From Candidatus Cloacimonadota bacterium (GTDB lineage Bacteria; Cloacimonadota; Cloacimonadia; Cloacimonadales; JAJBBL01), in NCBI GenBank assembly GCA_019429305.1, contig JAHYIR010000010.1:1-55363 (forward strand): DNA of 55,363 bases, given 5' to 3'. The translations under genes and the position numbers were made by a program. The notes beneath the pieces are model-generated. The model ran no database searches. It was not told the origin of the DNA and saw only the letters and a program-made list of their open reading frames with translations. How positions within the stretch are numbered: the first letter of the stretch is position 1; every line of letters begins with the position of its first letter. This document shows positions 2,363 to 15,230 of the stretch, one piece after another.

Positions 2363-3325
2363 ATGAAAACTGTTCTATTGATTTTGGTAGCAATCTTAGT
2401 TGTAATATTTATTACCCTTGTTCAGGCGTGTTCTGATAACCCTCTGGCTAATTATCCTGATATTGACCGGCTTGATAAACTACCTCCCGATATTATCAAA
2501 AGAACTCCTAAAATAGATCACCACCCCCCTATCCTGCATTCCAGTGATTATGAGGAACCAGTACCTTTAGGTGCAGGAGTTAACACATCAGGGGCTGAGG
2601 ATTCTCCATATATTTTACCAGACGGTAATACTCTCTATTTCTTCTTCACACCGGATGTAAGAGTGCCGCCGGAACAACAAATATTAGATCAAGTTTCTGG
2701 TGTTTGGATCTCATATAAAATTAACGGTGAATGGCAATCTGCAGAAAGGGTTTGGTTGCAAAAGCCCGGAAAATTGGCTTTAGACGGCGCCGTTGCTATC
2801 CAAGATGATGAAATGTGGTTTGCCTCAGCAAGAGAAGGTTATACCGGAGTTAATATGTTCACTGCAGAGTTGGTAAATGACAGATGGGTCAATTGGACTT
2901 AATGTGGGGATCGACTTATGAAAGAGATCCAAATAGGCGAAGTACATATTCATAATGATGATCTCTATTTCCATTCAGATAGACCGGGTGGGTTTGGTCT
3001 TTATGATATTTGGATGACTACCAGAAGCGAAGGTGAATGGTCAGATCCGATTAATATCGAAGCCGTTAACACACCTGCCAATGAAAGCCTCCCTTTTGTA
3101 ACAACAGATGGTAATGAACTCTGGTTTACCAGAACCTACTTGGGTACTCCCGCTATCTTTCGTTCAATCAAACAGGGTGATGATTGGGGTACACCTGAAT
3201 TGGTAATATCACAATTTGCGGGAGAACCTACACTTGATGAAGTGGGTAATATCTACTTCGTGCATCATTTTTATGAGTATGGAGTAATGATAGAAGCTGA
3301 CATATATGTTGCATACAAAAAATAG
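2363..3325 (+). pseudogene. PD40/TolB-like beta-propeller lipoprotein, interrupted by an in-frame stop
   Basis: Two stretches in the same frame (2363-2902 and 2918-3325) encode one continuous propeller-like protein of about 320 residues, separated by a single TAA at 2900-2902. The first part has a lipoprotein-type signal ending LVQAC and then WD40-like (PD40) strand motifs such as SPYILPDGNTLYF and EMWFASARE. The second continues with LYFHSDRPGGFGLYDIW and LPFVTTDGNELWF. The join falls inside a blade, at about NDRWVNWT-stop-CGDRL. The propeller motifs match proteins that often bind peptidoglycan-associated complexes or ligands in the periplasm. A GTGGGG run before the ATG at 2918 could allow restart. 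It is either a recent nonsense mutation or a sequencing/assembly error; no frameshift is needed to restore the frame. Confidence 0.7.
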
Positions 3326-14207: not shown

Positions 14208-14624
14208 TTAGCAATTATTTACTTTACCGGCTGCAAAGGGATTGACAGTTTTATATGGTTTTTCTTCTTCCTGTTTTGGTTTTGGGTAATCAATCGGAAC
14301 AGCACAAAGGAATTTCAAAGTGGTTTGACCTGCATTACGGAACTGATGTTTCATATCAGGGTCTGCATATATAACATCGTCTTTTTTGAATGGATATTCC
14401 TTCTCCTCTGTAACAAAGACCCCTTCTCCTTCAAGAACATAAACCTCATGTTCAAAACTGTGTGAGTGATAGGGTGTAAAGCCACCTACTTCCACCTCAA
14501 ATAATCTCAGGGCAAAATTAGGGGCACTATCCTTTTGCGAAATCAACCAGCGGATTTTTGTACCTTTAGCTCCTTCGACATTAACGTCTTCTAAGGTAAC
14601 TTCTTTATGTGATACTACCTTCAT
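14208..14624 (-). CDS. Single-domain cupin protein
   Basis: 138 residues with one cupin barrel. The first metal motif is H-S-H-S-F-E-H-E...G-E-G (about 52-66) and the second ends in DPDMKHQFRN, supplying the last His. Such small cupins bind a divalent metal and may be sensors or enzymes; the substrate is not predictable. A very strong ribosome site (AAGGAGGAGG) lies directly before the ATG. It is immediately downstream of the unusual tRNA gene on the same strand, so it could be on the same transcript. Confidence 0.85.
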   Translation of the reverse strand: MKVVSHKEVTLEDVNVEGAKGTKIRWLISQKDSAPNFALRLFEVEVGGFTPYHSHSFEHEVYVLEGEGVFVTEEKEYPFKKDDVIYADPDMKHQFRNAGQTTLKFLCAVPIDYPKPKQEEEKPYKTVNPFAAGKVNNC

Positions 14625-14661: not shown

Positions 14662-14756
14662 TGGCTGAGAGGGCAGGAATCGAACCTGCCACAGACGGTT
14701 TTATCCGCCCGCTACTGGTTTTGCAGACCAGCCGAGACACCAGTCCCATCCTCTCG
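14662..14756 (-). tRNA. Selenocysteine-type tRNA with Cys anticodon GCA
   Basis: 95 nt including an encoded CCA. The fold can be drawn as follows: acceptor GAGAGG/CCTCTC preceded by a C1-A72 mismatch; A8; a 6-bp D stem TGGGAC/GTCTCG with a 4-nt loop TGGT; anticodon stem CTGGT/ACCAG (plus a G-T pair at its base) with loop CTGCAAA, anticodon at 14724-14722; an 8-bp variable arm GCGGGCGG/CCGTCTGT (three G-T pairs) with loop ATAAAA; T stem GCAGG/CCTGC with loop TTCGATT; discriminator G73. The long D stem with its small loop, long variable arm and G73 are hallmarks of bacterial tRNA-Sec, and the anticodon arm differs from the usual Sec loop CTTCAAA at position 34 only. Normal tRNA-Cys has a short variable region and U73. 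The acceptor-T branch is 12 pairs here against 13 in E. coli tRNA-Sec. It starts 15 nt after the ferritin-like gene. The gene call is firm; charging with Ser/Sec rather than Cys is inference. Confidence 0.85.
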
Positions 14757-14771
14757 ATCTATACTTTATTT

Positions 14772-15230
14772 TTAGAATGATTCAACATAAGCCACATCAA
14801 CAAACGCATTCTCTATCTTCTGCTTGTGTTTAAGCTCCATATTGGCAAGATTATAGCACATATCTTTGACCTGTTCATCTATAGTTCGTTTTGCTAAGTC
14901 TTGATAAAATTCTGCTGCCTGCTGTTCCTTCTTCATTGCTAAGGCAAAGGCATCTGCTGGTTTCATATCAATTGATAGTGGAGGTAATTCAGTCTCTTCG
15001 GCTAATTTGAAATCGTGTTCCGGTGCCTTGATCTCAAAGTGCTTTTCCGGATTGGCACGAAAAGACTCCAACAGATTACGGTGTCCCTGCTCTTCTGCTG
15101 CCAATTCACTAAAAATCGTGGTTAATCCTCTGTTCTCGAAAGAAGCTGCAACTTTGCTGTAAAACTCAAATGCCTCTATTTCCCTATGAATAGCCAGATC
15201 AATCAGGCCAAGGAATTGCTCTTTATCCAT
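14772..15230 (-). CDS. Ferritin-like di-iron protein (rubrerythrin family)
   Basis: 152 residues forming a four-helix bundle. The di-iron ligands can be assigned: Glu in EIEAFEFYS, then E-E-x-G-H in AAEEQGHRN, Glu in KKEQQAAEFY, and E-x-x-H in MELKHKQK. The C-terminal rubredoxin-like zinc/iron domain of classical rubrerythrin is absent, so it belongs to the short ferritin-like group, which is often linked to peroxide defence in anaerobes. A GGAG site lies 9 nt before the ATG. Its stop is 15 nt from the first base of the tRNA gene, so the two are probably on one transcript. Confidence 0.85.
   Translation of the reverse strand: MDKEQFLGLIDLAIHREIEAFEFYSKVAASFENRGLTTIFSELAAEEQGHRNLLESFRANPEKHFEIKAPEHDFKLAEETELPPLSIDMKPADAFALAMKKEQQAAEFYQDLAKRTIDEQVKDMCYNLANMELKHKQKIENAFVDVAYVESF

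Follow-up and report, generated by a model that had tools for sequence, protein, structure and literature searches.

The tRNA gene and its surroundings

The window, by which we mean the whole 55,363-nucleotide stretch that was analysed, corresponds to contig C10 of its source genome (G000; other G numbers denote Cloacimonadota relatives). It carries a 95-nt tRNA gene on the minus strand, with C1 of the mature molecule at 14756 and A76 at 14662, flanked by two protein-coding genes:

14208–14624, minus strand: small cupin protein with a C-terminal Cys, downstream neighbour (context only)
14662–14756, minus strand: tRNA-Sec gene with anticodon GCA, a Cloacimonetes-type 12-position acceptor/T branch, G73 and an encoded CCA
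14665, minus strand: discriminator G73, of the Sec/Ser type, versus U73 in tRNA-Cys
14691–14712, minus strand: long variable arm of 8 bp, a SerRS-type feature
14722–14724, minus strand: anticodon GCA in the loop CUGCAAA (UCA in most relatives)
14733–14748, minus strand: D arm with a 6-bp stem and a 4-nt UGGU loop, a SelA-type feature
14772–15230, minus strand: rubrerythrin-like protein, upstream neighbour, in a context conserved in G001 and G014

All the parts described in the original prediction (95 nt with CCA, D stem, anticodon arm, 8-bp variable arm, and G73) were confirmed. The anticodon arm reads CUGGU-CUGCAAA-ACCAG, with a sixth pair (G-U) possible, and the T stem has 5 bp without a bulge. 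The marks of a bacterial tRNA-Sec (6-bp D stem, 4-nt loop, long variable arm, and G73) are all present, and the acceptor/T branch comprises 11 pairs and a C1-A72 mismatch, giving 12 positions rather than the 13 bp (8+5) of the bacterial form. The branch of 12 pairs noted earlier thus holds as a count of positions, but it is no oddity: the same short branch occurs in the UCA tRNA-Secs of the phylum Cloacimonadota, and is therefore a lineage trait and not a sign of decay. The missing 13-bp branch is not decisive against membership among bacterial tRNA-Secs.

The Rfam tRNA-Sec model covers the gene over its whole length at 56.9 bits (cut-off 47; E 6e-9), versus 23.1 bits for the ordinary tRNA model (RF00005), which is under the cut-off of that model; together with the presence of SelA and SelB (see below), these scores bear out the tRNA-Sec identity proposed from the sequence. 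An ordinary tRNA-Cys is ruled out by G73 (not U73) and by the 8-bp variable arm (not short). ARAGORN detects the gene (window 14666–14755) but names it tRNA-Cys(gca). Such systems are therefore easily overlooked, and standard annotation hides them on both sides, because the tRNA is labelled tRNA-Cys and the selenoenzyme resembles a plain Cys enzyme.

The position of the GCA tRNA gene between the rubrerythrin-like and cupin genes is common to G000, G001, and G014, and in G004 the gene lies directly upstream of selA-selB. The C-terminal Cys of the cupin (NNC/NDC) is conserved in three GCA genomes (window 14208–14624; L090:1013–1444; L072:1618–2058), and no SECIS-like hairpin was found at this codon. 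Elsewhere in the window, two successive open reading frames (2363–3325) resemble the halves of one protein, a possible frameshift or assembly error.

Selenocysteine genes of G000 and spread of the GCA form

G000 (2.39 Mb, 52 contigs, 99.92% complete) encodes SelA (C9:18633–20051) adjoining SelB (C9:20118–22061), both intact and each exceeding its curated NCBIfam cut-off, as well as a SelD. There is one SelB and one CysRS. Contig C16 carries a normal tRNA-Cys (GCA, U73) as part of a Gly-Cys-Leu cluster. No second tRNA-Sec scored over the cut-off in this 99.92%-complete genome, and none of the 43 tRNAs found in it has a UCA anticodon. The genes that the original prediction had proposed to look for (selA, selB, selD, and a normal tRNA-Cys) are all present in G000, and a UCA tRNA-Sec was not found. 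G000 was searched family by family.

A tRNA-Sec scoring over the cut-off occurs in 49 of 107 genomes from the order; most of these are UCA, and nine are GCA. When 125 genomes from the phylum were scanned for an exact pattern, the same nine GCA carriers were returned and none further. The nine genes are spread over six families and share the letters of the variable arm; G73 and CCA are kept in all nine, and none has a T-stem bulge. Compensatory changes among them affect the acceptor stem (A-U/C-G), the D stem (A-U/G-C and A-U/U-G), and the anticodon stem (U-A/C-G and G-C/A-U). Nine carriers with compensatory substitutions in three arms are not a product of chance, and a private mutation is excluded: the G at position 34, which the original prediction had read as a change from T, is not private to the source genome.

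The SelB proteins of the GCA genomes form one clade (support 95/96), which includes one of the two SelBs of G007. That protein is encoded on contig C82 of G007, next to selA; the gene for the second adjoins the UCA tRNA on contig C92, and its product groups with the SelBs of UCA genomes (85/88).

Codons and SECIS hairpins at the Sec site

Read-through of stop codons was allowed in the search for SelD and the formate dehydrogenase alpha subunit (FdhA) in the Cloacimonadota genomes. In UCA genomes, the Sec site is UGA (CARL-U-HSS in FdhA, G-U-[GA] in SelD), and exactly that codon is UGC or UGU (UGY) in GCA genomes. For fdhA, UGY occurs in eight of eight genomes with a GCA tRNA (G007 included) and UGA in 10 of 11 UCA-only genomes (Fisher p 1.2e-4); for selD, UGA occurs in none of eight GCA-only genomes versus 14 of 15 genomes with UCA (Fisher p 1.8e-5), both p-values ignoring kinship and hence overstating the independence of these related genomes. 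The Sec site of fdhA is UGC in seven of the eight GCA genes (P 0.004 against the Cys-codon usage of each gene itself), although most of these genes otherwise prefer UGU; UGC is the codon that is fully paired by G34. In G000, it is codon 353 of fdhA (UGC; C19:20327–20329, minus strand).

A hairpin lies 3' of the Sec codon in all UGA and UGY fdhA genes compared (GUGGCC-GGUCU-GGCUGC, with apical loop GGUCU), spanning codons +5 to +10; its core in G000 is at C19:20297–20314. Codon invariance was assessed across the GCA genomes and G007, using columns with an invariant amino acid whose codons are at least fourfold degenerate. Only 7 of 160 such columns in GCA fdhA are codon-invariant, and five of the seven form an unbroken run, SECIS codons +5 to +9; random placement of invariant codons would give this outcome with a chance of about 2.6e-8. 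The stem is closed by a pair between the third nucleotide of a Thr codon and that of an Ala codon; this pair occurs in UGY genes as G-C, U-A, and A-U, with one mismatch (G009), and its covariation score was reached by only 2 of 500 shuffles. The remaining six of the seven hairpin pairs do not vary within the GCA set; when the UGA and UGY groups of fdhA are taken together, the pair at positions 6/18 occurs as G-U, G-C, and A-U. The motif is absent from the Cys-type FdhA of Haloarcula, Skermanella, and Aureimonas. The SECIS hairpins that the original prediction had proposed to look for after UGU/UGC codons in homologues of selenoproteins are thus found in fdhA, where they are held at synonymous positions and covary.

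Other selenoprotein families gave a less uniform picture. The UGY selD genes of G001, G004, and G008 keep a hairpin of seven pairs, two of them compensatory, a conservation that, among three sequences, is suggestive only; no convincing hairpin follows the UGU codon of G000 selD. The Sec site of FlpD is UGA in several UCA genomes. FlpD was rejected as a further UGY selenoprotein: in G004, the codon is UGC but no SECIS-like hairpin accompanies it, and the product is probably a plain Cys protein. G005 (L089, L322, L324, L330) has a tRNA-Sec(UCA) and three flpD/mvhD genes with an in-frame UGA, and neither SelA nor SelD was found over the cut-off in this 97%-complete genome.

Probable Sec decoding at Cys codons, and related systems

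The gene set, the sequences, the co-variation, and the selection on the SECIS are observed; the gene set, taken with established bacterial Sec biology, predicts a particular course for charging, conversion, and insertion. SerRS would charge the tRNA with Ser (long variable arm, G73), and SelA would turn Ser into Sec, using selenophosphate from SelD. SelB would then bring the Sec-tRNA to a UGC that precedes a SECIS hairpin; the best-supported target in G000 is the UGC at fdhA codon 353, which replaces the UGA of relatives. At UGY codons without a SECIS, the normal tRNA-Cys would supply Cys, such that the SECIS would restrict Sec to marked codons. Because the Sec codon doubles as a codon for Cys, this amino acid may be placed at the same position when selenium is scarce, and a full-length enzyme would still be made. 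We give a probability of about 0.88, judged from sequence, to a working tRNA-Sec that reads UGC/UGU and delivers Sec via SelA, SelB, and the SECIS at a marked Cys codon; very probably, the source bacterium inserts Sec at the SECIS-marked Cys codon of fdhA. The anticodon–codon co-variation across the phylum, the retained SECIS hairpins, the intact SelA and SelB, and the failure to find a UCA tRNA-Sec in G000 all favour this part of the original prediction.

The GCA anticodon, the Sec-like shape, and the 12-pair branch are also compatible with a tRNA-Cys of the selC* type, which is Sec-shaped but charged with Cys by CysRS, and is described from anaerobic Firmicutes, Nitrospirae, Thermodesulfobacteria, and Proteobacteria (PMC7609411, reviewing Mukai et al., 2017 NAR). 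Many such tRNAs with U73 turned up elsewhere in a scan of public genomes. As described, U73 and a bulged A51a define the class (PMC7609411), whereas each of the nine Cloacimonadota genes carries G73 and lacks a bulge in the T stem. Furthermore, some selC* lineages are reported to have an additional selB*/cysS*, and G000 has only a single SelB and a single CysRS. With G73, no A51a bulge (that is, no 8/4 branch), and one SelB and one CysRS, assignment to selC* was rejected, and we regard it as very unlikely. The numerous U73 Sec-shaped GCA tRNAs among loci L165–L243 (Nitrospirota, Bacillota, Thermodesulfobacteria) are themselves consistent with selC* tRNA-Cys.

Replacement of Sec by Cys is frequent in selenoprotein evolution. 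FdhA might simply have undergone this change to become a normal Cys enzyme, leaving the GCA tRNA-Sec as a relic or with another target. G093 lends this some weight, as its fdhA (L294) has UGC and an intact SECIS, yet only a UCA tRNA-Sec was found in this 93%-complete bin; UGC with a SECIS is therefore no proof by itself. G093 may have lost a GCA gene to an assembly gap, or it may represent a very recent Sec-to-Cys replacement. For the GCA genomes, a simple replacement is highly unlikely: the tRNA, SelA, and SelB are intact, the hairpin of UGY genes is kept at synonymous positions and covaries, and Cys-type homologues lack the SECIS sequence. A decaying or relic tRNA is likewise rejected by its compensatory changes and by the intact SelA and SelB. 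Proteome-wide missense incorporation, with Ser or Sec placed at random Cys codons through EF-Tu, is hardly credible. The 12-position branch might weaken exclusion by EF-Tu, as for the allo-tRNAs described in PMC7609411 and PMC11431864, but a branch just as short is present in the UCA tRNA-Secs of the phylum, and random misreading leaves the co-evolution with SECIS-marked sites and SelB unexplained. The two other outcomes that the original prediction had entertained, decoding noise and a relic read by another synthetase, are thus disfavoured relative to Sec insertion at SECIS-marked codons.

G007 has both tRNA-Secs (UCA and GCA) and two SelBs (loci L306 on C92, L305 on C116, L344 on C82, and L307 on C101); its selD keeps UGA, and its fdhA uses UGC. 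This combination suggests that G007 has two parallel Sec codes. A mixed bin was rejected as an explanation, as the contig with the GCA tRNA carries the only RsmB of the genome, which, as one marker, makes contamination unlikely. The pattern would fit either two ancient systems that were lost differentially or the transfer of one system, and the tRNA and FdhA trees favour neither. Tentatively, at somewhat less than even odds, the Cloacimonadota may hold two old paralogous systems, SelB-1/tRNA-Sec(UCA)/UGA and SelB-2/tRNA-Sec(GCA)/UGC-UGU, of which most lineages keep one and G007 both. If so, the Cys-codon system would permit Sec/Cys exchange with selenium supply and without truncation, and G007, if both of its systems are real, would be a naturally occurring cell in which a single non-standard amino acid has two codons.

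Variants of tRNA-Sec for Cys codons, including UGU in Aeromonas salmonicida, have been described (Mukai et al., 2016, Angew. Chem.; PMC10778597, PMC8124441, PMC5133445), as has a Cloacimonetes-type tRNA-Sec with a 12-bp (7+5) branch (Mukai et al., 2016; PMC5330540). Both Sec at UGU/UGC by an anticodon-variant tRNA-Sec and the 12-bp type are thus already known from what these sources report of that work, in which GCA forms from Cloacimonetes may already be listed; of the present findings, the double system of G007 has the best chance of being new. As in G000, the Aeromonas salmonicida kind is described as having a sense-anticodon tRNA-Sec, a Cys codon with a SECIS in a selenoprotein gene, and SelA/SelB. 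Probable recoding of a Cys codon in G000 is indicated by an anticodon complementary to UGY, with no UCA tRNA-Sec found, and by a UGY at the fdhA Sec site followed by a SECIS under selection. The Cloacimonadota case differs in phylum, in the nine genomes with the same gene, and in the relative that also keeps a UGA system and a second SelB. The Cloacimonetes-type tRNA-Sec, as described, agrees with the present gene in its 7+5 branch, G73, and the body seen in the UCA tRNA-Secs of the phylum, and differs in having UCA instead of GCA. With the GCA genomes, sense-codon Sec would extend to a phylum that is largely uncultured, in a coherent group of lineages whose tRNA, SelB lineage, codon, and SECIS all match; these genomes also offer clean test sites.

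Outside the Cloacimonadota, Burkholderiales (Rubrivivax and relatives) have an E. coli-like tRNA-Sec(GCA) (L164, L175, L181, L193, L202, L204, L215, L216, L219, L222, L238). An fdhA was not within the loci fetched around these genes. They share G73 and GCA with the Cloacimonadota gene but differ by their 8+5 branch, and mostly adjoin selB; apparently, this form is a second, independent lineage with Sec at Cys codons.
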